A stretch of DNA of 64,000 bases from Flavobacteriales bacterium (lineage in GTDB: Bacteria; Bacteroidota; Bacteroidia; Flavobacteriales_C; GCA-002722245). The notes beneath the pieces were generated by a model that saw only the letters and a program-made list of their open reading frames with translations, was not told the DNA's origin and made no database searches. Location: assembly GCA_023251095.1 (NCBI GenBank), contig JAHEZL010000008.1, forward strand, positions 62,001 through 126,000, in the 5' to 3' direction. Below, one piece after another: positions 14,911 through 34,189 of this stretch. Each line of letters opens with the position of its first letter. Position 1 is the stretch's first letter. The position numbers and the translations under genes were made by a program.

Positions 14911-14975
14911 TAAAAGTAGCGGGCTTAGGGATTTTTAACTTTGAGGGGAATCAGGGGTGGATATGATAGAAATCA
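14911..14975 (-). promoter_or_regulatory. Crp/Fnr-type dual-box promoter of the cco operon
   Basis: Read towards ccoS: distal dyad TGATTTCTATCA (14964-14975), proximal dyad TGATTCCCCTCA (14942-14953), then TACTTTTA (14911-14918), five of six informative matches to TAnnTTTG. The dyad centres are 22 bp apart and the near one is 29.5 bp from the first base of the -7 element. The distal dyad overlaps the ccoI stop codon. Same geometry as other promoters up to 34 kb. Confidence 0.7.
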
Positions 14976-17342
14976 GTTTATAAACTTCCTGCGATACGCA
15001 AAGTAAGTTCCACCCACTGCCAGCGACACAACAGTAATAGAGCTGATGGGCATTAATACTGCTGCAAATAAAGGAGTTACCTGCAAAGTACAAGCGAAGT
15101 ACATTCCAACAATATTGTATAAAAACGACAAGCCCAAACAAGCGTATATCACTTTCAATACCGAGCGGGAATAAGAAATCATTTCAGCGAGTTGTATAAA
15201 ATTTTTTCCATCGAGGATGATGTGGGCTGAAGGATAAAATGAATTTACATTATCGGAAACCGCAATACCTACATCGCTTACTTTCAGTGCAACTCCATCG
15301 TTGATGCCATCGCCCACCATCATGGTTTTTCCATTCTCTGCAAGCATTTGAATGTATTGTTTTTTGCCTTCCGGATTTTGGTTGAAGAGCATGTTTTTTC
15401 CGAAGTATTGCAGCAGTTGCGGATTTTCATCTTTGTGATCACCACTCAATAAATATATTTCAGAATCGGCAGATAATTTTTCCAGCATATCCCAGAGTCC
15501 TTTACGGTAGCGACTTTCCAGAAAATAATAACCCTTGTGTTTTCCATTGATCGCCACGTGAACCACCGAACCATGTTTTGGATTTTCAACTGTTACGTTG
15601 GATTTGGTGAATAAAGCCGAGCCGATACAAACAACATTATTTTGAAATTTTGCTTCAATACCTTTTCCTTTTATTTCTTCATAAGCTTCTGGTTCTAGTG
15701 AAGGTGTGTGTTTGAGTTTGTCGCTTAAAATTCTGCTCAGCGGATGATTGCTGGAATTCACGGTAGAAAAAACGAGAGACTCTTCTTCGTCGGATAAAGT
15801 AGATCCGCAATACGTCACTTCCACTTTTTCGGCAACGGTGATGGTTCCGGTTTTATCGAGAACAATATTTTTGATGCCCGCTACTTTTTCAATAACGAAA
15901 GCATTTTTTAAATAAAATCCGCGACGCGATAACAGGCGTATGGCATTGCCTAAAGCCATGGGTGCGGATAAAGCAGAGGCGCACGGACAAGTAATCAGCA
16001 GCACGGCGGTGAGTGCATTGAATGCCCCGTGAATATTGTTGTTCATCCAGTAATAAGAAAAAGCAGAAAGAGCGATGAGCAAAACCAAAGCCGTAAAATA
16101 TCCGCTGAATTTTCCGGTGAGCGATTCCAGCACATCTTTTTTGCCACTCGATTTCACTTCATCCCACAAACAAGCCAGATAACTTTTATCTGTTTTTTTC
16201 AGCACTTTAAATTCTCCGGATTTACCAATGATTTTGCTGCCCGCGTAAATTTTATCGCCCTTGTTAAATCGTCTGGCCATGGCTTCTCCTGTGATAAAGC
16301 TCAAATCTGCGGTGATGCTTTCAGAAACAACTTCAGCGTCGCAGGGAATAATCTCTTCGTTTTTTATTTTAATAAAATCTTCTTCTTTCAGGTTTTCAAT
16401 TAGCACACGCTCTTCACCGATCGTTGTTTTTTTCAAAACAGAAAGAGGAAAATAGGAATACAATTCGCGCTCAAAAGAAAACTGATTGAAAACTTTATTC
16501 TGAAAATATCTGCCTGTTAGCAAAAGAAAAACGAGTCCGGCCAGTGTATCAAAATAACCTGATCCGGTTCCGCTGATCACTTCATACATGCTTCTTCCAA
16601 AGAGCGCGATAATACCGAGTACTAAAGGAACATCAATACTTATTTTTTTTACTTTCAGAGCACTGATACTGTTTTTAAAAAACTCACTACCCGAGTAAAA
16701 CAGGATGGGAAGGATCAGTAAAATATTGAGATAGCGAAAGAGTGATTTAAAATCATCTGACACTTCTTCCAGCGCCAGATATTCAGGAAAGCTGAGCAGC
16801 ATGATGTTGCCAAAACAAAATCCGGCCACGCCTATTTTCCACAATTGTTTTTTGTAGGAGGTGTTGTTTTCCGGAGTACCCGATTTTTTTTTGAAGGAAG
16901 GTTCGTAGCCGATTTTCGTAAGCAAGAGGGCAATTTCTTTTATAGATACTCGTCGTGGATCATAAGTAATAGCGGCTTCTTTCAAAGAAAAATTTACGTG
17001 TACAGTTAAAATTCCTTCTTTGAGTTTATGTAAATTTTCAAGTAAATAAATACAAGAGCTACAATGAATCTGAGGAAGTAACAAGCGCACTTTTTCTGCT
17101 TCGGTGCTTTTAAAATCGAGGAGTTTGTCAACTGCATCGGGAAGATCAAGAAAAGCAAAAGCGTCGTTTTTAACTAAAGGCGTGAAGCCCGGGGATGACG
17201 CGAGAGAGTAGTATGAGCTTAAACCCGATTTGCTGAGTAAATAATAAACATTCACACAGGCTGCACAACAAAAAAGATGATTGTCTCCGGTGAATTTTTC
17301 TTTCACTTCTTCTCCGCAATGAAAACAGCTGATTGTTGTCAT
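14973..17342 (-). CDS. ccoI: Copper-translocating P-type ATPase of cbb3 maturation
   Basis: 789 residues. N-terminal Cys-rich segment (CFHCGEEV, CCAACVNVYY) characteristic of CcoI/FixI, then a heavy-metal-associated domain whose CxxC is CSSC (near residue 93). Eight transmembrane helices with the ion-binding motif TCPCAS, phosphorylation motif DKTGTIT, actuator TGE in FITGEAM and hinge GDGINDG. It exports Cu(I) for cbb3 assembly. The actuator reads TGEAM where most relatives have TGES. It lies upstream of ccoS with its own box-type promoter; a 79 bp gap with a second promoter separates it from ccoS. Confidence 0.94.
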   Translation of the reverse strand: MTTISCFHCGEEVKEKFTGDNHLFCCAACVNVYYLLSKSGLSSYYSLASSPGFTPLVKNDAFAFLDLPDAVDKLLDFKSTEAEKVRLLLPQIHCSSCIYLLENLHKLKEGILTVHVNFSLKEAAITYDPRRVSIKEIALLLTKIGYEPSFKKKSGTPENNTSYKKQLWKIGVAGFCFGNIMLLSFPEYLALEEVSDDFKSLFRYLNILLILPILFYSGSEFFKNSISALKVKKISIDVPLVLGIIALFGRSMYEVISGTGSGYFDTLAGLVFLLLTGRYFQNKVFNQFSFERELYSYFPLSVLKKTTIGEERVLIENLKEEDFIKIKNEEIIPCDAEVVSESITADLSFITGEAMARRFNKGDKIYAGSKIIGKSGEFKVLKKTDKSYLACLWDEVKSSGKKDVLESLTGKFSGYFTALVLLIALSAFSYYWMNNNIHGAFNALTAVLLITCPCASALSAPMALGNAIRLLSRRGFYLKNAFVIEKVAGIKNIVLDKTGTITVAEKVEVTYCGSTLSDEEESLVFSTVNSSNHPLSRILSDKLKHTPSLEPEAYEEIKGKGIEAKFQNNVVCIGSALFTKSNVTVENPKHGSVVHVAINGKHKGYYFLESRYRKGLWDMLEKLSADSEIYLLSGDHKDENPQLLQYFGKNMLFNQNPEGKKQYIQMLAENGKTMMVGDGINDGVALKVSDVGIAVSDNVNSFYPSAHIILDGKNFIQLAEMISYSRSVLKVIYACLGLSFLYNIVGMYFACTLQVTPLFAAVLMPISSITVVSLAVGGTYFAYRRKFIN

Positions 17343-17346
17343 GTTG

Positions 17347-17389
17347 TAAAAGTGAGAAAGAGTAAGCTATAACGATATGACGGAAGTCA
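17347..17389 (-). promoter_or_regulatory. Crp/Fnr-type box and -7 element of ccoI
   Basis: Proximal dyad TGACTTCCGTCA (17378-17389 read on the minus strand) is a perfect TGAC-N4-GTCA. Its centre is 29.5 bp from CACTTTTA (17347-17354), a weak TAnnTTTG match ending 5 bp before the ATG, so the mRNA would be nearly leaderless. At the expected distal position (17400-17411) only one half-site (TGAT) is present. Confidence 0.5.
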
Positions 17390-17398
17390 GTTAAAGCG

Positions 17399-17776
17399 CT
17401 ATTTGATATCAGGAACCCTGCTGAGTTCCTCGCCTTGGAGGTTTTGTTCTTTTAAAGTCCAGCTGTCGGTTACAGTAGTTTCTAACCAGGCTTTTCCAGA
17501 TTTGCGAAAGACCTGCACTCCCAGTCCGTATTTAGTGCCAAAGGTTTGTTCCAGCTCATCCACAGTCATATCAGGAGTGATAGTGATTTTTCCTTTTTTA
17601 TGAATGCTGCGGCATTCATTTAATGTTTTACTGCCGTGTTTAATAAATTTTTTTGCCGATACACAACCGGGTTTATGGGTGCTGGAAAAAAATTCAATTT
17701 TTAAGTAAGGAAAAAGAGCAGAGAATTCTTCCTGAATTTCCAATATCTTTCTGTTATCGTCAATGCTGATTTTCAT
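17399..17776 (-). CDS. Conserved protein of unknown function in the cco regulon
   Basis: 125 residues, no signal peptide or membrane segment. I do not recognise a domain. Visible features are an N-terminal acidic/amphipathic stretch, IEFFSSTHKPGCVSAKKFIKHG with a single Cys, and a C-terminal beta-rich part (GLGVQVFRKSGKAWLETTVTD). TPDMTVDELEQTFGTKYGL suggests a ubiquitin-like or beta-grasp type fold, but that is a guess. It sits between the response-regulator gene and ccoI, and its own promoter carries the dual-box architecture, so it is probably expressed with the cbb3 system. Confidence 0.7.
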   Translation of the reverse strand: MKISIDDNRKILEIQEEFSALFPYLKIEFFSSTHKPGCVSAKKFIKHGSKTLNECRSIHKKGKITITPDMTVDELEQTFGTKYGLGVQVFRKSGKAWLETTVTDSWTLKEQNLQGEELSRVPDIK

Positions 17777-17805
17777 CTTTATACTTTTTAATTAAGTAGA
17801 TGAAG

Positions 17806-17870
17806 TAAAATTAATGCATCAACTGTGTTAAAAGAATGAGGGAACTTACCAATTGGAGTGATTAGTATCA
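17806..17870 (-). promoter_or_regulatory. Crp/Fnr-type dual-box promoter of the 17.4 kb gene
   Basis: Read towards the gene: distal dyad TGATACTAATCA (17859-17870, overlapping the stop codon of the regulator gene), proximal dyad TAAGTTCCCTCA (17837-17848, one mismatch), -7 element TAATTTTA (17806-17813). Dyad centres 22 bp apart, 29.5 bp from the -7 element: identical geometry to the ccoS promoter. Confidence 0.65.
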
Positions 17871-18926
17871 GTTTTTCATTTTTGCAAGCTTGTCCAAAGA
17901 CAGAATAATGATAGAACTTCCTTTGATATCCACGATGCCTTCGTCTTTAAAATCACTAAGGGTACGAATAGTGGTTTCGGTTGCTGTGCCTGCAAGGTTG
18001 GCTAAATCTTCCCGTGGAATATTCATGCTAAACTGAGTGTCGCCGTCTTTTTTGTATCGTTTGCTAAGAGTGGATAATGCTTCTGCAACTCTTTTTCTTA
18101 CTGAGTTGTAAGCCAATTTAAGGAGTTGTTCTTCTTTTTCTTCCAGGTTATCGGAAATCATTTTGATGAACTTTCTGGAGATTTCCGCATTCTTATAAAT
18201 CAAAGAATAAAAATGTTCTTTTGGGATCATGCAAACTTCAGCGTCTTCCATGGCTGCTGCCGAATCGGAATATTTTGCTTCTTCCAATAAAGCGAGGTAG
18301 CCGAAGAAATCACCTTCTTTATATAAGCCTGTGATGAACTCTTTTCCTTGTTCGTTAGTGCGGTAAGTTTTTACTTTTCCTTTATTGATGAAGAAAATTC
18401 CTTTTGGGTAATTTCCTTCGAAGTAGATGCTTTCTTTTTTCTTGTGTGTTCTTATTTCATTTTCTTCGGAGAGTTTTTTCAAATCTTCAAATTCTTTCGC
18501 ACCTAAAAGAAATTCAGAAAGTCCTTGTGCATTTTTTGCAAATTCCATTTTTGCAACATCCGATTTTTTTAAGCGACTTTCAATAGCATTGAGCAATTCA
18601 ATATTATCGAAAGGTTTGGTTAAGTAGTCATCTGCACCCATTTCCATTCCTTTGCGCAATTCGCTTCTTTCGGCTTTTGCGGTAAGGAAAATAAAGGGAA
18701 TGGTAGAAGTTTCGGTGTTTTTAGAAAGCAGGTGCAACACGCCGTAGCCATCCAAAACCGGCATCATGATATCACAAATAATCAAATCGGGTTTGTCTTT
18801 AAGCGCAAGCTCAACACCTTCTTTTCCGTTTTTTGCGGTAATTACGTTGTAATTGGAAAGGGAAAGAATTTCCGCTGTATTTTCTCTTACGTCGTTGTTG
18901 TCTTCTATTAAAAGTATTTTCTTCAT
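17868..18926 (-). CDS. Response regulator fused to a Crp/Fnr-type transcription factor
   Basis: 352 residues. Residues 1-120 are a CheY-like receiver with acidic pair E8/D9, phospho-acceptor D52, T82 and K104 (YLTKPF). Residues about 130-255 are a cyclic-nucleotide-binding-type beta roll. Residues about 270-345 are a Crp/Fnr winged helix with recognition helix around TATETTIRTLSDF, keeping the family Glu and Arg. In the phosphate-binding cassette the sequence FGYLALLEEAKYSDSAAA lacks the Glu and Arg that hold cAMP in Crp, and no Fnr-type Cys cluster is seen, so control is probably by phosphorylation. Translation is coupled to the kinase gene (4 bp overlap). Best candidate for the regulator that binds the TGA-N6-TCA boxes nearby; that link is inferred. 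Confidence 0.88.
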   Translation of the reverse strand: MKKILLIEDNNDVRENTAEILSLSNYNVITAKNGKEGVELALKDKPDLIICDIMMPVLDGYGVLHLLSKNTETSTIPFIFLTAKAERSELRKGMEMGADDYLTKPFDNIELLNAIESRLKKSDVAKMEFAKNAQGLSEFLLGAKEFEDLKKLSEENEIRTHKKKESIYFEGNYPKGIFFINKGKVKTYRTNEQGKEFITGLYKEGDFFGYLALLEEAKYSDSAAAMEDAEVCMIPKEHFYSLIYKNAEISRKFIKMISDNLEEKEEQLLKLAYNSVRKRVAEALSTLSKRYKKDGDTQFSMNIPREDLANLAGTATETTIRTLSDFKDEGIVDIKGSSIIILSLDKLAKMKN

Positions 18927-20125
18927 TGCGGTAATGATATGGTAAATATTGTTCCTTTATTTTCTTCACTTTCAAATTCAATTGCGCCATTCATTAACTC
19001 GGCATAGCGGGCAACAATGCTGAGTCCTAAACCGGTTCCCTGAATATGAGTGGCATTGTGTCCGCGGAAAAATCTTTCAAATAAATTTTTCTGATCGGCT
19101 TTAGAAATTCCAATGCCATTGTCTTTCACTGAAATTTTAACGGAGAGATTTTTCACTTCAGAGTTCACTTCAATGTTTTTTCCTTCCGGTGAAAACTTAA
19201 TGGCATTTGACATGAGGTTGAATAAAATATTTTTCAATATTTTTTTATCCAGATGTGCAGTTTCTTTGCCTGTGTGGGTGTATAAAATTTTATGAATGGT
19301 GGTCAGTTGCTGCATTTCACCTATAGTTTCGCTAATGAAAGATTTTAAATTTATTTCTTCAGGAGAGTTTTCCAGTTTACCTTCTTCGAGTTTACTTACC
19401 GATAAAAAGTCGTTCAATATATCAGTGAGATTATTAATGGAATTTTTAATTTTCCCCACATGCTTGTCTTGATTTTGTTTGTCGTTTTTTTCGCCGTATA
19501 AAGTCACCAGTGACAATGACGACATCATGGTAGTAAGGGGAGTGCGAAACTCATGAGAAGCCATAGATACAAAACGCGATTTCATTTCGTTGAGTTCTTT
19601 TTCTTTGTCCAAAGCGTCATTCAGTTCCTTTTTTGTTTTTTCCAGTTCTTCAACAGCTTCCTCTAAAATCATGGTGCGGTTTTTAACCTGTCTTTCCAGT
19701 TCACTGGAATAAGTTTTTAATTTTTCTTCGGCTTGCTTTCTAACAGTGATATCAATAATGAAAGCAATTACAAATTTCCCTTGAGGGGAGGCATAAGGAC
19801 TCAAGCTTATTTCAACGGGAAATTCCGTCCCGTCTTTTTTTAAACCAAAAAGATTCATTCCTGCACCCATGGATCGGGCATGAGGATTACTATGAAATTT
19901 ATCTCTGTGTCCAACGTGTTTTTCCATTAAACGTCTTGGTACCAATGTTTCAATTCGTTGTCCAATCAGTTCATTTTCTTCATAGCCGAAGAGTTTTGCT
20001 CCGCTGGGATTTATGCGTGTTATTTCGCCTTTGTCATTAGTTACCAAAATACCTTCGGTAGCATAAAGAAAAAGAGCTTCAATACCTTCTTTAGTTTCCA
20101 TTTTATGGTTGAATGAATTATTCAT
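18923..20125 (-). CDS. Soluble PAS-domain sensor histidine kinase
   Basis: 400 residues, no transmembrane segment, so it senses an intracellular signal. A PAS domain (about 12-128) is followed by a coiled coil (130-185), HisKA with H191 in SHEFRTPL, and HATPase with N307, DNGIGI (335-340) and GTGLGLS (363-369). In the PAS domain His70 lies 27-29 residues before KDG, the spacing I recall for the heme ligand His200 of FixL, while the distal Arg position is Met90. Heme binding is therefore possible but unproven; many non-heme PAS domains share this wording. Partner of the adjacent response regulator. Probably co-transcribed with the two small membrane proteins upstream. Confidence 0.9.
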   Translation of the reverse strand: MNNSFNHKMETKEGIEALFLYATEGILVTNDKGEITRINPSGAKLFGYEENELIGQRIETLVPRRLMEKHVGHRDKFHSNPHARSMGAGMNLFGLKKDGTEFPVEISLSPYASPQGKFVIAFIIDITVRKQAEEKLKTYSSELERQVKNRTMILEEAVEELEKTKKELNDALDKEKELNEMKSRFVSMASHEFRTPLTTMMSSLSLVTLYGEKNDKQNQDKHVGKIKNSINNLTDILNDFLSVSKLEEGKLENSPEEINLKSFISETIGEMQQLTTIHKILYTHTGKETAHLDKKILKNILFNLMSNAIKFSPEGKNIEVNSEVKNLSVKISVKDNGIGISKADQKNLFERFFRGHNATHIQGTGLGLSIVARYAELMNGAIEFESEENKGTIFTISLPQ

Positions 20126-20299: not shown

Positions 20300-20476
20300 T
20301 TATTTAGAGTTTTTCATTCCAAAAAACATAGCCGATAACGTTCCGAAAATGGTGAGTAAAAACATCACTAAAGTGAATTTTGGTTTAGTAATGTCAATTT
20401 GCATATAAGCATAACGGAAAGGGCCAATAATCACTACTGTAGCGATTATAATGGCAATGAGTTTGTTTTTTGTCAT
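20300..20476 (-). CDS. Small two-helix membrane protein (58 aa)
   Basis: 58 residues from the ATG at 20476 (an upstream ATG at 20512 would lie close to the -7 element). Two hydrophobic stretches: LIAIIIATVVIIGPF and FTLVMFLLTIFGTLSAMFF. No recognised domain. First gene downstream of the divergent dual-box promoter and of an apparent operon with the 40-residue protein, kinase and regulator. A decayed copy of its promoter and first 20 codons is present at 34042-34189. Confidence 0.65.
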   Translation of the reverse strand: MTKNKLIAIIIATVVIIGPFRYAYMQIDITKPKFTLVMFLLTIFGTLSAMFFGMKNSK

Positions 20477-20495: not shown

Positions 20496-20590
20496 CAAAG
20501 TTCTTTATACAAGGTGTAAAGGGGAATGAGGTGTATCAGGACAGGATATGACGGATGTCATAATTCGCTAAAATCAAGTGATTAACTTTG
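20496..20590. promoter_or_regulatory. Divergent promoter sharing one pair of Crp/Fnr-type boxes
   Basis: Two dyads, TGAGGTGTATCA (20527-20538) and TGACGGATGTCA (20549-20560), with centres 22 bp apart. Leftwards, GAACTTTG (20496-20503) begins 29.5 bp from the near dyad, serving the small membrane protein operon. Rightwards, a perfect TAnnTTTG (TAACTTTG, 20583-20590) lies 28.5 bp from its near dyad and ends 5 bp before the ATG of the RNase gene, implying a leaderless or nearly leaderless mRNA. Confidence 0.72.
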
Positions 20591-20595: not shown

Positions 20596-21960
20596 ATGAG
20601 CGAAATAAAAATTCATTTCTTAGGAGCGGCCGGAACGGTTACCGGGTCAAAATATCTGGTAGAGGTTGGGAGTAAAAAAATACTGATCGACTGCGGACTC
20701 TTTCAGGGAATTAAAAAACTGCGTCAACTTAACTGGGATAATCTTCCGCTGAATGTGGGGGAAATTGAGTGTGTTTTAATTACGCACGGACATTTAGATC
20801 ATTGCGGATTTTTGCCCAGATTGGTGGAAATGGGTTACCAAAACCGGATTTACGGGACAGCACCTACTTTGGAAATTGCCGAAATTATTTTGCGCGACAG
20901 TGCTAAAATTCAGGAGGAAGATGCAGAAAGAGCCAATAAAAAAGGCTATTCCAAACATCATCCTGCAAAAGCACTTTATACGATTGAGCAAGTTGATAAA
21001 GCTGTTGCGCATTTCAGGGCGATAGAAGAAAACTACTGGATGGAGATCAGTAAAGACATAAAAGTACGATTCACTTATGCCGGACATATTTTAGGAGCTG
21101 CTACTATTGAGTTGGATATAAAGGGTAAAATATTTGTTTTTTCAGGTGATATTGGAAGGGAAAATGATCTTATCATGTTTCCGCCAAAAACGCCTGAACA
21201 TGTTGATGTTCTTTTTATTGAAAGCACTTATGGTGATCGTTTGCACACCAAAGAAAATATTGAAGATCGTTTGATAAAAATCGTCAATGAAACTATTGCT
21301 GCCGGGGGAACACTCATCATTCCAAGTTTTGCGGTGGAGCGAACACAATTGCTAATGTATCTGTTGTGGCAAATGAAAGTGAAAAAACAAATTCCGGATG
21401 TGCTGATGGTAATGGACAGTCCGATGGGCGCCAATGTAAATAGAGTTTTTCAGCACCATATCAAATGGCAAAAGCTTTCTATGGATGACTGCAACGCGAT
21501 GTGCAACTGTTTTGTGGAAACCAAAGATTTTAAAGAATCATTGTCCATCGTTCATGATGAAAGACCAAAAATCATTATTGCCGGAAGCGGTATGATTACC
21601 GGCGGCAGGGTTTTAGCTTATTTAAAAGAGTATATCTCCAATCCGAAAACAACAGTGCTTTTGGCAGGATTCCAATCTGAAGGAACCCGTGGCCGTCAAT
21701 TGTTACGAGGTGCGGCAGAGATTAAAATATATGGAAGATATTATCCTGTTAATGCCCGTATTGAAGAGATTGGCGGATTAAGTGGACATGCTGATCAAAA
21801 GGGATTAATGCATTGGATGTCGCAAATTAAAAACAAACCCGAAAAGGTTTTTATTGTTCATGGCGAACCCCAATCTTCTGATGTGCTGAGGGTGAAAATT
21901 GAAAGTACATGGGGCTGGAACTGTGTGATACCGCAATTATGGGAAACTATCGACTTGTAG
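20596..21960 (+). CDS. Beta-CASP metallo-beta-lactamase ribonuclease (CPSF73-like)
   Basis: 454 residues from the ATG at 20596; an in-frame GTG at 20578 precedes the -7 element and is rejected. The start FLGAAGTVTGSKYLVE, the zinc motif HGHLDHCG (64-71), the downstream His in FTYAGHILGA and Asp in FSGDIGRE, the beta-CASP domain, and the C-terminal GLSGHADQ and VHGEPQS motifs define the bacterial/archaeal CPSF73-like (RMMBL) family. These are cytoplasmic zinc-dependent RNases involved in RNA processing or decay. It is transcribed divergently from the sensor operon by shared boxes, which suggests RNA turnover is adjusted with the respiratory switch. Confidence 0.92.
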   Translation: MSEIKIHFLGAAGTVTGSKYLVEVGSKKILIDCGLFQGIKKLRQLNWDNLPLNVGEIECVLITHGHLDHCGFLPRLVEMGYQNRIYGTAPTLEIAEIILRDSAKIQEEDAERANKKGYSKHHPAKALYTIEQVDKAVAHFRAIEENYWMEISKDIKVRFTYAGHILGAATIELDIKGKIFVFSGDIGRENDLIMFPPKTPEHVDVLFIESTYGDRLHTKENIEDRLIKIVNETIAAGGTLIIPSFAVERTQLLMYLLWQMKVKKQIPDVLMVMDSPMGANVNRVFQHHIKWQKLSMDDCNAMCNCFVETKDFKESLSIVHDERPKIIIAGSGMITGGRVLAYLKEYISNPKTTVLLAGFQSEGTRGRQLLRGAAEIKIYGRYYPVNARIEEIGGLSGHADQKGLMHWMSQIKNKPEKVFIVHGEPQSSDVLRVKIESTWGWNCVIPQLWETIDL

Positions 21961-24553: not shown

Positions 24554-24666
24554 AATTTTTTTATTTAAGATTTAAGCAATGTTAGCTCAAAAGAGGTGGT
24601 ATGGAAATGATAGCGCTTAGTGAAGAATATGATTATAAACAGCTCTAAAAATATTTTTCCAATAAA

Positions 24667-24716: not shown

Positions 24717-25316
24717 TTATACAAAAGCTTTCTTCAAATGTTTATAAGCATTTTTAATTTCAGTGCTGAAGTTTTCTGCTTTGCTGAAAGCCGTGGATTT
24801 ATTGCCTGAAATTTTTTCTTTCATTTTTTCTACTTGTTTTAAAAAATCGGCTTTTTTGACTTCAAATTCTTCTTTGATATCAACCTTTTTAAGCTCAAAG
24901 TGAAGTCGGAGAATCTCGAGTTTGATTTTAAATCGTTCAATTTCATGTTGCAGTTTAGCGTGTACTTCCGCAGTGAAAGGATTGTTCTCTAATTCTTTTT
25001 CAAGATTGTTGAGGGCACGTGTGATTTTTTTCTTCTGTTCGTTAAAAGCATCAATGGTATCGGCCTTTCCGAGAGTCAGTTGTAATTGCAATTCTTCTAA
25101 ACGTGTTTGCAATTCATCTTTTCCCCCTTTTAGTTCGTTGACTTTAAGTTTGGTTTCGTGAAGCAGTTTGTTGAATTTTTTCTTTGTTTCTTCGTATTTG
25201 TCCTTTACTTCGGCTTTTCCGAGCGCGAGCTGCAATTGAAATTCTTCCAACTCAATCTGAGCTTTTTTGATTCCACTGATGAGAGTATTTGCGATTTTTG
25301 CGGTTGTAGTTTCCAT
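24717..25316 (-). CDS. Coiled-coil protein with three internal repeats (paralogue A)
   Basis: 199 residues, highly charged, no signal peptide or membrane helix; almost all predicted helix. A 26-residue unit occurs three times (about 23-48, 73-98, 133-158), with pattern LEExQLQLxLGKAxxxDxxx followed by ExKKKF. It differs from paralogue B at 33330-33929 at about 23 of 199 positions with no gap. No known domain; apolipoprotein/phasin-like helical bundles are one possible comparison. It lies downstream of the secreted 303-residue protein gene in the same direction and may be read from the same dual-box promoter at 26.4 kb. Confidence 0.75.
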   Translation of the reverse strand: METTTAKIANTLISGIKKAQIELEEFQLQLALGKAEVKDKYEETKKKFNKLLHETKLKVNELKGGKDELQTRLEELQLQLTLGKADTIDAFNEQKKKITRALNNLEKELENNPFTAEVHAKLQHEIERFKIKLEILRLHFELKKVDIKEEFEVKKADFLKQVEKMKEKISGNKSTAFSKAENFSTEIKNAYKHLKKAFV

Positions 25317-26393: not shown

Positions 26394-26458
26394 CAAATCT
26401 ATGTTGTGTTATTAGAGTATTGAATGAGGGGAGTCAATAGTATATCTGACCTTTGTCA
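26394..26458 (-). promoter_or_regulatory. Crp/Fnr-type dual-box promoter of the secreted-protein gene
   Basis: Read towards the gene: distal dyad TGACAAAGGTCA (26447-26458), proximal dyad TGACTCCCCTCA (26425-26436), both exact TGA-N6-TCA, and a perfect -7 element TAGATTTG (26394-26401). Centres 22 bp apart, near one 29.5 bp from the -7 element. This is the best-preserved example in the window and the reference for the others. Confidence 0.78.
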
Positions 26459-26485: not shown

Positions 26486-26519
26486 TGATTTAGGTCATTT
26501 GCAGAATTGAGGATTTTCA
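26486..26519 (+). promoter_or_regulatory. Orphaned Crp/Fnr-type box pair in front of the ATPase remnant
   Basis: TGATTTAGGTCA (26486-26497) and TGAGGATTTTCA (26508-26519) are both exact TGA-N6-TCA dyads with centres 22 bp apart. No TAnnTTTG lies at the expected 28-30 bp downstream; homology to the P-type ATPase C-terminus begins there instead. The pair probably belonged to the intact ATPase promoter before a deletion. Confidence 0.6.
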
Positions 26520-26541: not shown

Positions 26542-27102
26542 GCTTTAGGATGGATATATCCCAATATTTTTTCGCCTGTACATATCATCTTTTTAGAATT
26601 GATTATGGGACCAACATGTTCCATCATCTATGAAAATGAGCCGATGGAAAAAAATACAATGCTTCAAAATCCGAGACCCTTCACTACTACTTTTTTTAAT
26701 TGGAAGGAATTAACCACTAGCATTGTACAGGGATTGGTAATTACTACAGCAAGCTTGTTTAGTTATCAATTTGCAGTATATCAAGGTTTCGATGAGGCAC
26801 TAACCCGCACAATAGTATTTACCGTTCTCATCTCTGCCAATATATTTTTAACTCTTGTGAATCGTTCTTTTTATTATTCGTTACTAACTTCTTTAAAAAT
26901 CAGGAACAATTTAATTCTGTTAATCATTGGAATTTCGGTATTGCTATCAGGATTATTACTTTTTGTAAAACCTCTGACTGTGTTTTTTGAATTTGAAACG
27001 ATGACTGTCATTCAGCTTTTATTTAGTATTGGTATAGGGTTTTTATCGGTGATATGGTATGAGGCAGTGAAATGGAGGAAAAGGAAGTTAAGTGTTGCAT
27101 GA
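26542..27102 (+). pseudogene. C-terminal remnant of a cation-transporting P-type ATPase
   Basis: The frame contains only the last four transmembrane helices of a Ca2+/cation P-type ATPase. The typical junction LGWIYPNIFSPVHIIFLEL is readable from 26545, followed by IMGPTCSIIYENEPMEKN and PRPFTTTFFNWKELTT. All upstream parts are absent (TGES actuator, DKTG phosphorylation site, nucleotide-binding domain, first helices), about 650 residues by family length. The only initiators for the remnant are TTG at 26599 or ATG at 26605. An in-frame stop lies at 26491. A 167-residue membrane protein could still be made, but transport activity is impossible. Convergent with the Na/Pi transporter, 3 bp apart. 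Confidence 0.8.
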
Positions 27103-28759: not shown

Positions 28760-29245
28760 TTAATTTCCCCATGTCAGATGAGTGCCTGATGTATGTAAAA
28801 TATGTTCAGCTTGTTGAATTTCATGGATATTGCCTTGTACCATTACCAAAAAATTTCCTTTTACAATGTGTTCCTGGTATTTAACAACTTCTTGCTCTTC
28901 AACACCAAGAATTACCATTAAGGAGACAAATCCGCCGGCCAGCGCTCCCATATCCAGTCCCGCAATTGCGCCAATAACAGCACCAGCACCGTATAAAAAA
29001 CCAAAACCTGGAATTGCGAAAATTCCTAATCCTGTTAAAATTCCAAGTACCGGTCCGGCTATTGCTCCAATTGCCAAAGGAGCATTTTCAATTGTGTCTC
29101 TTGATTTGATTCGCATATTGTCGTCGATGATTTCGGCTTTCCCTATAATGGAAACCTGTTTGATAGGGAAACCATTGAATTCTAATTCTTTTACAGCATT
29201 TATTGCTTTTTCGTGAGAATCATATACGGCTACTTTTGCTTTCAT
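28760..29245 (-). CDS. General-stress-protein-like (YflT/GSP17M type) membrane-glycine protein
   Basis: 161 residues. The N-terminal 60 residues (VAVYDSHEKAINAVKELEFNGFP) match the ferredoxin-like domain of general stress protein 17M/YflT relatives, in which a sequence of this kind precedes a Gly/Ala-rich double-helix hairpin (APLAIGAIAGPVLGILTGLG, then GAGAVIGAIAGLDMGALAGG). The last 45 residues form a second small domain. Usually induced by stress; molecular role unknown. The gene leads the two-gene operon with the Na/Pi transporter. Confidence 0.72.
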   Translation of the reverse strand: MKAKVAVYDSHEKAINAVKELEFNGFPIKQVSIIGKAEIIDDNMRIKSRDTIENAPLAIGAIAGPVLGILTGLGIFAIPGFGFLYGAGAVIGAIAGLDMGALAGGFVSLMVILGVEEQEVVKYQEHIVKGNFLVMVQGNIHEIQQAEHILHTSGTHLTWGN

Positions 29246-29272: not shown

Positions 29273-29315
29273 CAAAAATCTGTGGTATTGAGCATTAAAA
29301 AAATGAGCCAACTCA
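29273..29315 (-). promoter_or_regulatory. Single Crp/Fnr-type box with -7 element (stress protein operon)
   Basis: Dyad TGAGTTGGCTCA (29304-29315, minus-strand reading) with its centre 29.5 bp from GATTTTTG (29273-29280), a five-of-six match to TAnnTTTG. The arms extend to a 7 bp palindrome AATGAGC-type. No second dyad is found 22 bp further upstream, so only half of the usual architecture is present. Confidence 0.45.
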
Positions 29316-29344: not shown

Positions 29345-30625
29345 TCATGTGATCTTCCACAAATCAAAAGCTTCTTTTTCCAGAGTTTCGCGATGAGATG
29401 GATGAGCAATGTTGATCAGCTCCCTGATTCTTTGTTTGATGTTTTTGGCGTACAAATTGGCAACACCAAATTCTGTTACAACATAATGTACGTGCGCTCT
29501 GGTAGTTACTACGCCTGAGCCGGCTTGCAAAGTGCTTACAATTTTTGAGGCTCCGTTTTTTGTGATGGAAGGTAGAGCAATGATGGGTTTTCCACCTTCT
29601 GATAAGGATGCTCCGCGGATGAAATCCATTTGTCCACCCACGCCCGAATAGAGCCTGCAGCCAATGGAGTCGGCACAAACCTGCCCCGTTAAATCAATTT
29701 CAATAGCACTGTTGATGGCTGTTACTTTAGGGTTTTGCATGATCACGTATGTGTCGTTAACGTAAGCAGTGTCGTGCATTTCAAACAAAGGATTGTCGTT
29801 TATATAATCGTATAATTTTTTTGTGCCAACCGCAAAACTTGAAATGATTTTGTGAGGATGTTTCATTTTCATTTCGCCGGTAATCACTCCTTTTTCAACC
29901 AGATCAATAATACCGTCGGAAAACATTTCTGTGTGAATGCCTAGTTTTTTATGATGGATGAGTTTACTTAAAACAGCATTTGGAATTTTACCAATGCCCA
30001 TTTGTAATGTAGCCCCGTCATCCACTAAACCGGCGATATTGCTCGCGATTTTCATTTCAATGTCGTTCGGTTCACCAACCTCAATCTCGGGTATCGGATC
30101 ATTGGATGAAACCATAGCCGAAAATCTGGATACATGAATCATTCCGCCGCCATGGGTGCGCGGCATATTGGGGTTGACTTGGGCAATAATGTTTTTTGCA
30201 ACTTCTGCAGCTGCAATAGCTATATCGGCAGAAACACCCAAACTGCAATAACCATGTTCATCCGGCGGTGAAACATGAAGCAAAGCAAAATCAACAGGAA
30301 TAATTTTTTTGCGAAACAAAGCCGGTATTTCACTGAGAAAAACGGGGATATAATCGGCATTTGCTGAATTGACGGCAGCACGTGTACTATTGCCGATAAA
30401 AAAACAATGGGTATTGAAAATACCTTTATAGCATGGGTCACAATAGGGAGCGAGTCCTTCTGTATGCATTTGGTAGATGGAAATATTGCTTAATTTCCCC
30501 CCAACCTCCACCAGGCCATTCACCAAAACCATTGGAATAGCAGCTCCTGTTTGAATGAAAATAGAGTCTCCTGATTTTAATGAAGAAAAAGCCTTTTCAG
30601 CGGAGATGTATGGTGTTATCTTCAT
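29345..30625 (-). CDS. Acetyl-CoA hydrolase/4-hydroxybutyrate-type CoA-transferase
   Basis: 426 residues from the ATG at 30625, which directly opens the conserved MKITPYISAEKAFSSLKSGD; an upstream in-frame ATG at 30649 is less likely. Motifs of the family are seen: QMGIGKIPNAV, the catalytic Glu in EIDLTGQVCADSIG and the CoA-site GVGGQMDFIRGA, GGKPIIALPS. These enzymes move CoA between acetate, butyrate, 4-hydroxybutyrate or succinate. Cytoplasmic; useful for acetate or acyl-CoA balancing under fermentative or microaerobic conditions. It follows the CBS gene by 45 bp and is probably transcribed with it. Confidence 0.88.
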   Translation of the reverse strand: MKITPYISAEKAFSSLKSGDSIFIQTGAAIPMVLVNGLVEVGGKLSNISIYQMHTEGLAPYCDPCYKGIFNTHCFFIGNSTRAAVNSANADYIPVFLSEIPALFRKKIIPVDFALLHVSPPDEHGYCSLGVSADIAIAAAEVAKNIIAQVNPNMPRTHGGGMIHVSRFSAMVSSNDPIPEIEVGEPNDIEMKIASNIAGLVDDGATLQMGIGKIPNAVLSKLIHHKKLGIHTEMFSDGIIDLVEKGVITGEMKMKHPHKIISSFAVGTKKLYDYINDNPLFEMHDTAYVNDTYVIMQNPKVTAINSAIEIDLTGQVCADSIGCRLYSGVGGQMDFIRGASLSEGGKPIIALPSITKNGASKIVSTLQAGSGVVTTRAHVHYVVTEFGVANLYAKNIKQRIRELINIAHPSHRETLEKEAFDLWKIT

Positions 30626-30670
30626 GTTATAAGTTTTGCAATAAAGCAATGGTCTCGTGATTGTTTTTTT

Positions 30671-31075
30671 TTAATTGTTCAGGAAATAACGAATCACATC
30701 TGCTGTTGAAACAATTCCTTTAACGTCACCATCGTCGCTGATAACTATAGCGTGAACGCGGCCTTTGGCAAGTTCTTCTGCCACTTCATTGATAGTTGCT
30801 GAAGTTGATTTTGTTGCTGGATGTGCGCTCATGATGTCCTTAACAAAAAGATTTTGATATTCCTGTTCATTATCATCTAACGAAGCATTTTTAATCGCAT
30901 AAAGAAAATCAACCAAGCTGATAATTCCTTTTAGTTTTCCGTTTTCGATTACAGGAATATGATGGTGGAACTTTTCTTTTTCAAAGATATGTTTAACGTC
31001 AACTAGTTTTTGAGATGGATCAACAGACACGACTACTGTAGTCATGATTTTTGAAATGGGAATATTATTATTCAT
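30671..31075 (-). CDS. Two-CBS-domain regulatory protein
   Basis: 134 residues consisting of a pair of CBS domains: PISKIMTTVVVSVDPSQKLVD and VKDIMSAHPATKSTSATINEVA open each half, and IPVIENGKLKGIISLVDFL and VISDDGDVKGIVSTADVIR close them. CBS pairs bind adenosyl nucleotides (AMP, ATP, SAM) and act as energy sensors. Stand-alone CBS proteins of this size are often hypoxia-induced. The gene starts a probable operon with the CoA-transferase and is divergent from the phasin-like/UbiB pair. Confidence 0.85.
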   Translation of the reverse strand: MNNNIPISKIMTTVVVSVDPSQKLVDVKHIFEKEKFHHHIPVIENGKLKGIISLVDFLYAIKNASLDDNEQEYQNLFVKDIMSAHPATKSTSATINEVAEELAKGRVHAIVISDDGDVKGIVSTADVIRYFLNN

Positions 31076-31099: not shown

Positions 31100-31195
31100 T
31101 AAAAATAGTGGTAGTAATAGGCAATCCTACTGACCGAGGTCATCTTTCGGGCCTATAATTATCATGTTTTATTTTCTTCTTTAGTCCTTTCTTTG
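31100..31195. promoter_or_regulatory. Divergent promoter with a Crp/Fnr-type box pair (CBS and phasin/UbiB)
   Basis: A perfect dyad TGACCGAGGTCA (31131-31142) and a degenerate one CTATAATTATCA (31153-31164), centres 22 bp apart. Leftwards, TATTTTTA (31100-31107) is 29.5 bp from the perfect dyad. Rightwards, TTTCTTTG (31188-31195) is 29.5 bp from the degenerate dyad and 51.5 bp from the perfect one. Both -7 elements are five-of-six matches. The layout mirrors the divergent promoter at 20.5 kb. Confidence 0.6.
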
Positions 31196-31215: not shown

Positions 31216-31560
31216 ATGAGAGCAAAAACAATGATTGAACTATTGACCTTATCTACTAACTTATATCTGATAGCAAAGGATAAGGAAACCATGGAAAATA
31301 TTACCCAACTGGTAAACAAAGGAAAAGAGAAATGGGATGAGGCAATGAAACCCTCTGAAGACGGCGAAGAAACTGATTTGATGCAAAAAATCATTGTCAA
31401 GGCCAAAGAAGCCAAACAGGAGCTGGATGAAAAAATGGAGGAAATAGCGGTAAAAGTATATGCCAAAATGCACATTGCTCATGCCGATGATGTAAAAGAG
31501 TTGGAGCAAAAAATAACTCAATTGGAAAAGCAAATCAGTTTATTACAGGCAAGAGCATAA
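31216..31560 (+). CDS. Phasin-like coiled-coil protein
   Basis: 114 residues, no signal peptide, mostly helix. The C-terminus ADDVKELEQKITQLEKQISL resembles the end of phasin/PhaF-type proteins, in which an Asp-Val followed by a leucine-zipper-like LxxxIxxLExxI segment mediates oligomerisation; the middle is amphipathic and charged. Such proteins coat polyhydroxyalkanoate granules or serve as regulators. A second ATG (31231) is also possible. It ends 3 bp before the UbiB-type gene. A PHA synthase is not in the window, so granule binding is unproven. Confidence 0.6.
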   Translation: MRAKTMIELLTLSTNLYLIAKDKETMENITQLVNKGKEKWDEAMKPSEDGEETDLMQKIIVKAKEAKQELDEKMEEIAVKVYAKMHIAHADDVKELEQKITQLEKQISLLQARA

Positions 31561-31563
31561 ACC

Positions 31564-33267
31564 ATGGGAGTCTTCAGTTACATTGACGGTAAGTACAGTT
31601 ATCTGAAACGCTACAATCAGATCATTAGAGTATTGTTTAAATACGGATTTGAAGATCTGGTGGCGTATATGGATGAAAAAAAACGCTTTCATTTTTTAAC
31701 GAAACTCATTCCTAATGCTACCTACGAGCAGTCACTTCACCTTAGCAAATGGGAAAAAATGCGTTTGGTGTGTGAAGAGCTCGGACCGACTTTTGTGAAA
31801 TTCGGACAAATTGTAAGCAACCGTGCTGATATTCTTCCTGCTGAATTAATTAAGGAATTAGAGAAATTACAGGATAGTGTTCCTCCGCTTCCCGGTAAAA
31901 TAATGATGGAAGCATTGGAGAAAGAGCTCCATAAAAAAATCACTGATGTTTTTGAATATTTTGAGCCCGAGGCTTTCGCTTCGGCTTCTATGGCTCAGGT
32001 ACACCGCGCCACCCTTAAAACAGGAGAGAAGGTGGTGGTGAAAATCCAACGTCCGGGCATAAAAGAAATCATCGAGTCGGATATCAAAGTAATGCTTTAC
32101 ATGGCCGATCTTTTCAAAAAAAGAATGCCTTCTCTGAAAAGTTTAGATCCTGTTGGCCTGATCAAAAACTTTGAAAAAAGTGTAATGGAGGAATTGGATT
32201 TTACTCGTGAATCCATTAATGTGGTACGCTTTCACTATAATTTTACGGAAGATAAAAGCGATCAAGGACACATTCATTCGCCAAAAGTTTATCCTGAGTT
32301 CAGCACCTCAAAAATTCTTACTCTGGAATATATTGACGGAGTTAAAATTTCTGATCTCGGAAAATTACAAACTAACGGACTGGATAAAAAGATAATTGCC
32401 AACCGTTTGCTCACTTCCTATTTCAAACAGGTTTTTGATTACGGTTTTTTTCATGCCGATCCGCATCCGGGTAATTTACTGGTGTTGCCGAATAATGTGG
32501 TATGTTATATTGATTACGGCATGATGGGCAATATTATGCGAAAGGATATTGAGCAACTTGGTACTTTGTTTTTAGCTGTTAAAGACAAAAACATTCAAAA
32601 GATCATTCGTGCTTTCCAACAAATTTCTGATACTCCTACTATTAAAAACATGAGAGAGATGGAAGCTGATCTGAATGAGTTCGTTCAGAATTTTTCTGTT
32701 CAAACCCTGCATCAAAATGAAATGAGTACCATTCTTTTGCAATTGAAAGACATTATCATTAAACATGGATTGAAAATGCCAACTCATTTTTTTCTGTTGG
32801 CCCGATCCATGATGACTATTGAAGGAGTAGTGCATCAGCTCGATTCTGAACTGGATATGTTGAAAGTGGTACGTCCGTTTTTAATTCGTACGGTAACTAA
32901 AAATTATAGTCCGCTTCGTTTTATGAAACAGATCTTAGGTTCTGTTCATGAAATGGGAATGTATATGGAAGAATTTCCCCGCGATTTGAAAAGTGCCATT
33001 CGCAAAATTAACAGTGGAGAAATAAAAGTAGATTTGAGGCATCAAGGGATTGATCCTTTGGTGCACACCATTAATCGTGTGAGCAAGCAAATTATTTCTG
33101 CAGTGATCGTTTCTTCACTGATCATTGGTTCTTCTCTGCTGATTGCATCTAATATCCATCCATTATGGGGCAAAACTTCTGCTCCCGGAATCATAGGTTT
33201 TATTATAGCCGGGGTTGTGGTTTTGGGAACTATACGGGATCTTCGCAAGGGGGATCACGATCAGTAG
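31564..33267 (+). CDS. UbiB/AarF (ABC1) family atypical kinase
   Basis: 567 residues. Family landmarks: the KxGQ motif in FVKFGQIVSNR, the Ala-rich nucleotide loop ASASMAQVHRA, the Lys in VVVKIQRPG, the catalytic-loop FFHADPHPGNLL and metal-binding DYG in YIDYGMMG. Two C-terminal transmembrane helices (about 500-520 and 535-555) anchor it. UbiB proteins support ubiquinone/menaquinone biosynthesis or lipid transport by ATPase activity. Its placement with a phasin-like partner under a low-oxygen-type promoter suggests a link to quinone or lipid metabolism under microaerobic conditions. Confidence 0.9.
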   Translation: MGVFSYIDGKYSYLKRYNQIIRVLFKYGFEDLVAYMDEKKRFHFLTKLIPNATYEQSLHLSKWEKMRLVCEELGPTFVKFGQIVSNRADILPAELIKELEKLQDSVPPLPGKIMMEALEKELHKKITDVFEYFEPEAFASASMAQVHRATLKTGEKVVVKIQRPGIKEIIESDIKVMLYMADLFKKRMPSLKSLDPVGLIKNFEKSVMEELDFTRESINVVRFHYNFTEDKSDQGHIHSPKVYPEFSTSKILTLEYIDGVKISDLGKLQTNGLDKKIIANRLLTSYFKQVFDYGFFHADPHPGNLLVLPNNVVCYIDYGMMGNIMRKDIEQLGTLFLAVKDKNIQKIIRAFQQISDTPTIKNMREMEADLNEFVQNFSVQTLHQNEMSTILLQLKDIIIKHGLKMPTHFFLLARSMMTIEGVVHQLDSELDMLKVVRPFLIRTVTKNYSPLRFMKQILGSVHEMGMYMEEFPRDLKSAIRKINSGEIKVDLRHQGIDPLVHTINRVSKQIISAVIVSSLIIGSSLLIASNIHPLWGKTSAPGIIGFIIAGVVVLGTIRDLRKGDHDQ

Positions 33268-33329: not shown

Positions 33330-33929
33330 TTAAACAAAAGCCTTTTTCAAATGTTTGTAAGCATTTTTAATTTCTGTACTGAAGTTTTCTGCTTTGTTGG
33401 AAACCATAGATTTATTGTCGGAAATTTTTGTTTTCATTTTTTCCACCTGTTTTAAAAACTCAGCTTTCTTTGCTTCAAACTCTTCTTTGATATCGCTTTT
33501 TTTTAGTTCAAAATGTAGTCGAAGAATTTCCAGTTTTATTTTAAATCTTTCAATTTCATGTTGGAGTTTAGTGTGTACTTCTGCGGTAAACGGATTGTTT
33601 TCCAGTTCTTTTTCAAGATTATTCAAGGCACGGGTTATTTTTTTCTTTTGCTCATTAAAAGCATCAATGGTATCTGCTTTTCCAAGAGCCAATTGCAATT
33701 GCAATTCTTCTAAGCGCGATTGTAATTCGTCTTTTTCCCCTTTTAGTTCATTCACTTTCAGTTTGGTTTCGTGAACCATCTTATTGAATTTTTTCTTTAC
33801 ATCTTCATACTTGTCCTTTGCTTCTGCTTTGCCTAATGCTAGCTGTAGTTGAAATTCTTCCAGATCAACCTGAGCTTTTTTAATTCCGCTGATCAGGGTG
33901 TTTACAATTTTTGAACTTGTTGTTTCCAT
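33330..33929 (-). CDS. Coiled-coil protein with three internal repeats (paralogue B)
   Basis: 199 residues from the ATG at 33929; the frame extends to 33983, but the start METTSSKIVNTLIS aligns exactly with paralogue A. The same three 26-residue repeats of the LEExQLQLxLGKA type are present and the C-terminus EIKNAYKHLKKAFV is identical. No domain is recognised. Its promoter at 33969-34033 carries two exact TGA-N6-TCA dyads, and a relic of a further promoter lies behind it. Probably a cytoplasmic structural or membrane-associated helical protein induced with the cbb3 regulon. Confidence 0.78.
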   Translation of the reverse strand: METTSSKIVNTLISGIKKAQVDLEEFQLQLALGKAEAKDKYEDVKKKFNKMVHETKLKVNELKGEKDELQSRLEELQLQLALGKADTIDAFNEQKKKITRALNNLEKELENNPFTAEVHTKLQHEIERFKIKLEILRLHFELKKSDIKEEFEAKKAEFLKQVEKMKTKISDNKSMVSNKAENFSTEIKNAYKHLKKAFV

Positions 33930-33968
33930 ATTTTTTAAAGTTAAAGTGAATAACAAAATTTTTTGTCT

Positions 33969-34033
33969 TAAATGTAGTCCCACGAGCTTCGTTTTTTAAT
34001 GAGTGCAGTCATTCGGAAAAGTGATGCCTATCA
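33969..34033 (-). promoter_or_regulatory. Crp/Fnr-type dual-box promoter of coiled-coil paralogue B
   Basis: Read towards the gene: distal TGATAGGCATCA (34022-34033), proximal TGACTGCACTCA (34000-34011), both exact, then TACATTTA (33969-33976), five of six informative positions. Centres 22 bp apart and near dyad 29.5 bp from the -7 element. The ATG follows about 40 bp later. Confidence 0.7.
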
Positions 34034-34041
34034 GTTAATTA

Positions 34042-34103
34042 TCATAAAGGACCAATAATTACTGCGGTAGCAATTATACGGGCAATGCCTTGGTTTTTTT
34101 CAT
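34042..34103 (-). pseudogene. Decayed duplicate of the small two-helix membrane gene
   Basis: The minus strand shows KNQGIARIIATAVIIGP, matching KNKLIAIIIATVVIIGP of the intact gene at 20300-20476. The first codons after the ATG (34103) are out of frame and a stop follows immediately after the conserved stretch (34042-34044). Nothing of the second helix is left. With the promoter copy behind it, this is the relic of a duplication. Confidence 0.72.
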
Positions 34104-34124
34104 GATGGTTTGATTTTATTCCCT

Positions 34125-34189
34125 CAAATTTCTTTATCGAAGCTGAGAATTTGAGTGAGGTTGGTTAGGATGAAATATGACGGATGCTA
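34125..34189 (-). promoter_or_regulatory. Decayed duplicate of the 20.5 kb dual-box promoter
   Basis: Distal TAGCATCCGTCA (34178-34189), proximal TAACCAACCTCA (34156-34167) and GAAATTTG (34125-34132) keep exactly the 22 bp and 29.5 bp spacings of the intact promoter (TGACATCCGTCA, TGATACACCTCA, GAACTTTG). Left half-sites are damaged in both dyads, consistent with loss of selection. Confidence 0.6.

Follow-up and report, generated by a model that had tools for sequence, protein, structure and literature searches.

The paired TGA-N6-TCA boxes of the window (the whole stretch of DNA analysed, 64,000 nucleotides) are very probably tandem operators of one regulon activated by phosphorylated REC-FNR, a response regulator with a PAS histidine kinase as its partner. 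To our knowledge, low-oxygen gene control is poorly known in the Bacteroidota, bacteria that abound in lakes, soils, sediments and bioreactors.

Exact TGA-N6-TCA / N10 / TGA-N6-TCA pairs occur five times in the window, against a chance expectation of about 0.025 for exact 22-bp pairs, given 40 dyads per 64 kb. Four of them (14942/14964, 20527/20549, 26425/26447 and 34000/34022) lie where a preliminary description of this DNA had placed them. The identical geometry that it reported for 17837/17859 (TGAGGGAACTTA) and 31131/31153 (CTATAATTATCA) holds only in part: a pair is found at both places, with one half-site degraded in each. At a threshold of 12 bits or more, a promoter model trained on 93 promoters of other genera detected 11 promoters in the window, and 20 shuffled windows gave no match. 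The sites are listed below, with the scores of this model.

14942 to 14975, minus strand: dyad pair of the ccoS-ccoNO promoter, conserved in congeners; -7-like TACTTTTA at 14911-14918.
17378 to 17411, minus strand: decayed pair preceding the gene of the ccoI-type P-type ATPase, with one dyad, at 17378, exact; 15.9 bits.
17837 to 17870, minus strand: pair preceding the 125-aa gene, one half-site degraded; -7-like TAATTTTA at 17806-17813.
20496 to 20503, minus strand: -7-like GAACTTTG, promoter of the 58-aa gene, kinase and regulator, gap 23.
20527 to 20560, no single strand: dyad pair with two divergent promoters (58-aa gene/kinase/regulator; RNase), dyads conserved in three congeners.
20583 to 20590, plus strand: -7 element TAACTTTG, beta-CASP RNase promoter, gap 22.
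24608 to 24641, minus strand: degraded pair, 21.9 bits; -7-like TAACATTG at 24577-24584.
26425 to 26458, minus strand: dyad pair of the gene for the 303-aa protein; exact -7 element TAGATTTG at 26394-26401; 41.5 bits, the top match of the window.
26486 to 26519, no strand assigned: second exact pair; neither strand has a -7 element at the expected gap.
29304 to 29315, minus strand: single proximal dyad with -7-like GATTTTTG at a 23-bp gap, before a YflT-like gene (28760-29245).
31131 to 31164, no single strand: pair with one degraded half-site between the CBS-domain gene (minus) and the phasin-like/UbiB genes (plus); 17.4 bits on one strand and 16.7 on the other; -7-like TATTTTTA and TTTCTTTG.
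34000 to 34033, minus strand: dyad pair of the coiled-coil gene, 33.2 bits; -7-like TACATTTA at 33969-33976.
34156 to 34189, minus strand: weak decayed pair, 13.7 bits.

The model recovers the promoters named previously, i.e., those at ccoS, 17.4 kb, 26.4 kb and 34.0 kb and those on either side of 20.5 kb and of 31.1 kb, together with the decayed versions at ccoI (17378) and 34156; the single box noted at 29304 was also found, with its -7-like element at the 23-bp gap. Two sites are additions to the earlier list, namely the promoter at 24608 and the exact pair at 26486/26508. The pair at 17837 to 17870 extends into the 3' end of the gene for the regulator.

Beyond the window, pattern searches and the stretches around their matches gave nine perfect pairs in the whole genome and none for the reversed pattern. 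A gap of 10 accounts for 9 of the 27 dyad pairs of this genome, and every other gap for at most 3. Perfect pairs also lie elsewhere in the genome: contig C28 has three and C39 has one. When 80 loci of other genomes were picked by the regulator alone, the 22-bp spacing was seen 86 times against 0.46 expected, the gap to TAnnTTTG was again 23 bp, and 81 of the 86 pairs lay outside ORFs of at least 120 aa, although non-coding sequence makes up only 15% of that DNA. Single dyads in these loci have -7 gaps of 23 and 45 and are half-decayed pairs. Sixty relatives contained 221 pairs versus 4 in the control. In congeners, the TGA and TCA triplets are invariant while the N6 and the spacer have changed, and the spacing is conserved in orthologous promoters. 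A phylum-wide spread was rejected: outside the class there are about 0.4 pairs per genome versus 0.1 in the control, which is near background, compared with about 3 per genome inside it. That the spaced pairs are a chance product or a repeat artefact of AT-rich intergenic DNA is practically out of the question. Controls are near zero in every collection; the reversed patterns, the shuffles, which yield no matches, and the non-coding location exclude an origin by chance or composition, and a repeat element is excluded because spacers and N6 differ from site to site.

Sigma-A promoters of Flavobacterium carry TAnnTTTG at -12 to -5 (PMC9723704), and the regulon promoters share this -7 element and, by prediction, its position, differing in that the proximal dyad takes the place of the upstream element. 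When TAnnTTTG was sought at gaps of 14-30, 62 matches were obtained against 0 in the control, all of them at a gap of 22-24. The 29.5-bp distance described before is valid when measured between the centre of the proximal dyad and the initial T of the -7 element, the actual gap being 22-24 bp. TAnnTTTG itself is exact in two window promoters (26394-26401 and 20583-20590), and the rest have near-matches such as TAnnTTTA. Since the gap is 23 bp and TAnnTTTG lies at -12 to -5, the proximal centre is predicted at -41.5. The TTG upstream element, 17-25 bp before the -7 element, is absent in almost 90% of 101 promoters, and the distal N6 is more AT-rich and more FNR-like than the proximal one (Wilcoxon p 9e-10). 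In 10 of the 11 predicted promoters, the start codon follows the predicted transcription start by 0-32 nt. The proposal of a shared architecture with positions of the -41/-62 type gains support from the spacing and -7 statistics and by the conservation in orthologous promoters.

The preliminary description had also proposed an activator of the Crp/Fnr family, which agrees with the co-occurrence with a CRP/FNR protein, the spacing and -7 statistics and the target genes. It had named no factor; a candidate regulator gene lies within the studied region itself, adjoined by that of its predicted kinase.

17868 to 18926, minus strand: regulator of 352 aa with REC, cNMP_binding and HTH_Crp_2 domains (Pfam), a REC-FNR fusion.
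18923 to 20125, minus strand: predicted cognate sensor histidine kinase, soluble, with PAS, HisKA and HATPase_c domains (Pfam).

The candidate factor is likely this phosphorylation-type fusion rather than an ordinary Crp/Fnr protein. Its Pfam matches are PF00072 (1e-27), PF00027 (6e-22) and PF13545 (3e-16), and in the receiver pocket E8, D9, D52 and K104 are invariant and T82 is near-invariant among 38 relatives. The top NCBIfam match of the CRP part is Fnr, below the cut-off, and the structures nearest to the AlphaFold model are FNR and CRP, with A. fischeri FNR the closest; this model, whose confidence is low at residues 85-99, added little to the domain assignment. The output domain is HTH_Crp_2, not the LuxR-type HTH of FixJ or the NarL/LuxR type of DevR/DosR. 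E317 and R321 of the recognition helix are invariant, and this Glu/Arg combination is common to REC and REC-less forms. No CxxC motif of Fe-S cysteines occurs in the window protein or in 112 REC forms, whereas the REC-less homologues carry FNR-like cysteines.

The kinase gene overlaps that of the regulator, and a kinase is adjacent in 76 of the 80 loci. Among solved structures, its PAS domain is most similar to the haem-PAS domains of FixL and DosP. His70, kept in 61 of 62 relatives, aligns with a FixL His, but PAS domains without haem may have such a residue as well. The distal Arg of FixL is absent, its place being taken by Met90 and variable among relatives, and haem binding is therefore uncertain. 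A different sensor is present in the neighbouring kinase at 15 of the 76 loci, so that the signal may vary.

Pairs directly adjoin regulator genes, and the promoter was present in 72 of 118 genomes with REC-FNR versus 21 of 129 without it (p 2e-13). REC-FNR, or a homologue sharing its recognition helix, was found in 89 of the 93 Bacteroidia genomes with the promoter, compared with a promoter in 4 of 94 genomes with neither form (p 5e-20); both p-values overstate independence because the genomes are related. No perfect promoter was found in 46 of the 118 REC-FNR genomes, the pattern being strict. REC-FNR is also present in cultivable relatives such as Dyadobacter and Rufibacter. Used by itself, an exact back-translated pattern of the helix had little predictive power (odds ratio 4), and it needed to be combined with the REC-FNR search.

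These distributions bear on the question of which protein reads the sites. One explanation is that two different CRP/FNR proteins, e.g., REC-FNR and FNR, occupy one dyad each and integrate two signals. The distal and proximal dyads are indeed unlike in sequence and several related CRP proteins occur per genome (G023 has three REC-FNRs and three short forms), but this arrangement is unlikely, as congeners G001 and G002 keep the pairs with REC-FNR as the sole match, and the common TGA/TCA core suggests a single protein. It is quite unlikely that the reader is instead an ordinary FNR-type protein, a direct oxygen sensor with an N-terminal CxxC such as those on contig C8, and that REC-FNR does something else. 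The genome has two such proteins, and REC-less relatives with FNR-type cysteines adjoin the same pairs in G011, G013, G023, G034 and G046. However, the recognition helix differs (SEQxIR versus TETxIR), the two model matches near the C8 FNR genes show a different consensus, TGnGAATAAACA, and pairs occur in G001 and G002 without a C8-like FNR, while G005 has such an FNR (46%) but neither REC-FNR nor pairs. By this sequence comparison, the two ordinary FNRs appear neither needed nor enough for the pairs and are unlikely to be the factor; they could share some sites. A repressor or dual-use operator in place of a class II activator site is very unlikely. Repression is possible for CRP/FNR proteins and the direction of regulation is here a prediction, but the fixed 23-bp gap, the TTG element missing from almost all promoters and the predicted centre at -41.5 form a signature of activation rather than of blocking.

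The genes that would be controlled by the pairs of the window are the following.

12544 to 14730, minus strand: ccoN-ccoO fusion, cbb3 oxidase, target operon; COX1 and FixO Pfam matches in the downstream-gene set containing this protein.
14733 to 14894, minus strand: ccoS, target, as previously assigned, which its position before the COX1/FixO fusion fits.
14973 to 17342, minus strand: ccoI/CopA-type P-type ATPase, target, assigned from sequence; pairs in L121 and L122 precede a gene of this type too.
17399 to 17776, minus strand: 125-aa conserved protein, no family assigned, recurrent target beside the regulator; homologues after pairs in L139, L186, L201, L207 and L219.
20300 to 20476, minus strand: small membrane protein of 58 aa, encoded by the first gene upstream of those for kinase and regulator; same place after a pair in congeners L143, L145 and L146.
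20596 to 21960, plus strand: MBL-fold beta-CASP/RMMBL RNase (Pfam), target; predicted +1 one base upstream of the ATG.
23180 to 24553, minus strand: 457-aa secreted protein with a Por secretion tail, target.
25452 to 26363, minus strand: 303-aa secreted protein, target.
30671 to 31075, minus strand: CBS-domain protein, target, followed by an acetyl-CoA hydrolase/transferase (29345-30649).
31216 to 33267, plus strand: weak phasin-like protein and ABC1/UbiB kinase, targets.
33330 to 33932, minus strand: coiled-coil protein, target, paralogue of 24717-25316.

Among 77 genes downstream of pairs, ccoNO occurs 10 times, Usp 6, DnaJ 4, and P-type ATPase, beta-CASP RNase and hemerythrin 3 times each. 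The predicted targets are the cbb3 oxidase with its copper pump, Usp, DnaJ, beta-CASP RNase, hemerythrin and the regulator operon itself, and this gene content points to low oxygen as the condition. The earlier suggestion of a low-oxygen regulon gains support from these genes, from the co-occurrence with the CRP/FNR protein and from the conserved promoters.

In the mechanism proposed for phosphorylated REC-FNR, the kinase, encoded directly upstream, would most likely respond to low oxygen or a redox change via its FixL-like PAS domain and phosphorylate Asp52 of the most likely activator, the regulator of 17868-18926, in which the receiver domain is joined to a complete FNR-type CRP module. Phosphorylated dimers would sit next to each other on the two dyads, with about two helical turns between them; the distal dyad, nearer to the FNR consensus, may be the anchor site, and cooperation would fill the weaker proximal one. 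Given TAnnTTTG at -12 to -5, the dyad centres would lie at about -41.5 and -63.5, and because of the former position the proximal dimer could replace the missing upstream promoter element and contact the sigma-A holoenzyme in a class II-like manner. Being palindromic, a single pair can drive a gene in each direction, and the kinase-regulator operon would activate itself. FNR-type relatives that have cysteines in place of the receiver appear to read the same sites in other Bacteroidia.

The DevR/DosR regulon of Mycobacterium shares some target types, Usp and the CBS domain. DevR/DosR is a two-component hypoxia regulator with cooperative binding and self-regulation, acting at closely packed boxes of unequal affinity of which the proximal one overlaps the -35 region (PMC3029386). 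Two-component control, packed unequal boxes with the proximal one over the -35 region, cooperation and self-regulation are predicted for REC-FNR as well, but DevR is of the NarL/LuxR type with a different DNA motif, and the likeness is one of convergent design, not membership. The FixL-FixJ-FixK system of the Alphaproteobacteria likewise places a PAS kinase and a response regulator over cbb3 oxidase genes, with FixL providing one of the PAS domains closest to that of the kinase, and the FixK/FNR box TTGA-N6-TCAA (PMC4999443) contains the TGA-N6-TCA of this regulon. Here, however, receiver and FNR-type output are in one protein in place of the FixJ-to-FixK relay, the operators are strict pairs at a Bacteroidota TAnnTTTG promoter, and haem is only a candidate feature of the kinase. 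Enterobacterial FNR and its relatives, the top NCBIfam and structural matches, have in common with REC-FNR the CRP fold, the Glu/Arg helix, the TGA-N6-TCA core, the predicted class II position and microaerobic targets; the window protein differs in lacking the Fe-S cysteines and having a receiver domain, and paired operators are its rule.

No description of this architecture, or of a REC-CRP regulator in Bacteroidota, was found in the literature searched, subscription papers and preprints lying outside its scope. The sequence rule of the regulon is precise enough for predicting members in newly sequenced relatives, and a regulator and a kinase can be named. If correct, the scheme would parallel, by convergence, the DevR hypoxia regulon of mycobacteria and provide a clear case of a DNA code retained while the sensor shifts from a metal cluster to phosphorylation. 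An FNR-like activator probably lies behind the Bacteroidia switch, with the Fe-S segment swapped here for a phosphorylation domain. It is fairly probable that one promoter code has been kept across Bacteroidia while the sensor that reads it was exchanged, between an Fe-S FNR and the kinase-controlled REC-FNR clade. The Fe-S-type FNR would then sense oxygen directly in some lineages, and the receiver domain would have replaced the cysteine segment in one REC-FNR clade, in which the kinase sensors vary too.

The recurring two-dyad geometry of the preliminary description is real. The window (C33:62001-126000) contains five exact pairs of TGA-N6-TCA dyads separated by 10 bp (14942, 20527, 26425, 26486 and 34000), and the whole 3.59 Mb genome of this member of the Bacteroidia contains nine, against none for the reversed dyad pattern used as a control. 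Of the pairs elsewhere, three on contig C28 lie upstream of a DnaJ-like gene, a P-type ATPase-like gene and a gene for a small secreted protein, and one is on contig C39; weaker matches to the model on C28 precede glycogen-synthase-like and phosphofructokinase-like genes (functions as read off the sequence). A weight matrix built from 93 promoters of other genera, scanned at a threshold of at least 12 bits, returned 11 promoters in the window and none in 20 shuffled windows. In 10 of these 11 promoters the predicted start falls 0-32 nt 5' of the assigned start codon.

The candidate regulator, here called REC-FNR, is encoded inside the window next to a histidine kinase:

17868-18926, minus strand: response regulator REC-FNR (receiver domain, CRP barrel, HTH_Crp_2)
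18923-20125, minus strand: PAS histidine kinase

With this protein as the sole query, and thus without selection on sites, 80 loci from named genomes were collected. They contain 652 dyads. A spacing of 22 bp accounts for 86 pairs and one of 23 bp for 8, and no other spacing exceeds 4, where 0.46 pairs per spacing are expected. DNA outside ORFs makes up just 15% of these loci, yet it holds 81 of the 86 pairs. In 38 cases 23 bp separate the pair from the -7 element TAnnTTTG, and each other gap length occurs at most 3 times; for dyads without a partner the gap peaks at 23 and 45, and these are the proximal and distal halves of decayed pairs. Sixty relatives gave 221 pairs versus 4 control matches and 62 oriented promoters versus none, all with gaps of 22-24 in a search that permitted 14-30. 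The geometry extends to the class, the full promoter being present in 93 of 247 genomes and the control in none. Comparison of the congeneric species shows constant TGA and TCA triplets and altered bases between them.

Because sigma-A promoters of Flavobacterium carry TAnnTTTG at -12 to -5 (PMC9723704), the 23-bp gap places the dyad centers at a predicted -41.5 and -63.5. Among 101 promoters, few have TTG where the upstream element normally lies, and the N6 of the distal dyad is rich in A and T and FNR-like, with TGAT-N4-ATCA in 39 promoters compared to 13 for the proximal N6 (GC content differs, p 9e-10). The distal dyad may therefore be the strong site and the proximal one the weak site, an unequal pair resembling the strong distal and weak proximal sites of DevR (PMC3029386). 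Of the 61 pairs that have an exact -7 element, 10 are flanked on the opposite side by another with no more than one mismatch, so that divergent use, of which 20527 is an example, is not unusual.

The preliminary reading of a Crp/Fnr-type regulon is supported by co-occurrence and by the targets, but its author had not identified REC-FNR as the likely regulator. The receiver residues of the window protein are intact, its CRP part scores highest with FNR in both family profiles and a structure search, and the kinase PAS is, among named solved structures, most similar to FixL and DosP. At least two pairs occur in 30 of 31 relatives with full-length REC-FNR versus 7 of 29 without it, and the promoter in 72 of 118 genomes of the class with REC-FNR versus 21 of 129 without, although the genomes are related and co-occurrence p-values thus exaggerate the independent evidence. 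REC-FNR or the recognition helix GTATETxIR covers 89 of the 93 promoter genomes; where both are missing, the promoter is found in only 4 of 94. The family also offers a natural experiment that agrees with REC-FNR as the factor: the congeners G001 and G002 keep the pairs and have REC-FNR alone, whereas G005 keeps an ordinary FNR and has neither REC-FNR nor pairs. The signal input may differ between lineages, since the adjacent kinase carries a sensor other than the window-type PAS in 15 of 76 loci (L174-L253). Locus L223, on a contig labelled Alphaproteobacteria, has a regulator that groups tightly with Runella and is probably a binning error.

Short relatives without a receiver, with the same helix and with FNR-like cysteines as putative ligands, adjoin the same pairs in G011, G013, G023, G034 and G046; REC-FNR is absent from G011, G013 and G046. 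In a tree of CRP modules the REC-FNRs form one group (support 90/99). CxxC occurs in 0 of 112 REC forms, and a Cys at the position of the last ligand of FNR is kept in some, including the window protein. We infer that the cysteine segment gave way to a receiver domain in a single event. Two things appear to be new, the strict geometry of two dyads and a Bacteroidota -7 element, and the REC-FNR fusion that probably reads it. The ingredients are each known already: FNR-type boxes, activation of class II, kinases of the FixL type and tandem sites of hypoxia regulators.

The 77 genes directly after pairs in the 60 relatives include cbb3 ccoNO (10), Usp (6), cytochrome c (6), DnaJ (4), P-type ATPase (3), beta-CASP RNase (3) and hemerythrin (3), and from this gene content the regulon is predicted to be microaerobic. 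The window pair at 20527 precedes a 58-aa gene and the kinase gene. In other genomes the first gene after a pair near the regulator is often the kinase gene itself, so the operon is predicted to activate itself. A 125-aa protein (17399-17776) without a match in Pfam or NCBIfam is a recurrent predicted target, its gene immediately following that of the regulator in many Bacteroidia.

On contig C39 (locus L018, C39:27000-46999), a perfect pair at 9990-10023 lies about 200 bp 5' of a PdxH-like gene and is kept in the congener G003 (L142). Downstream of the window pair at 26486, which lacks a -7 element, an ORF (26599-27102) matches a cation-transporting P-type ATPase in its C-terminal part only (Cation_ATPase_C) and is possibly a gene remnant. 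Near-identical coiled-coil proteins of unknown family are encoded about 8 kb apart at 24717-25316 and 33330-33983, only the latter with a clear box pair. Finally, two sites on contig C8 (locus L254, C8:36000-54000; 7234-7267 and 11869-11902) share TGnGAATAAACA, with the 22-bp geometry and 23-bp gap of the regulon; they lie 5' of an ordinary FNR gene and a 457-aa gene and are possibly operators of the bacterium's own ordinary FNRs.
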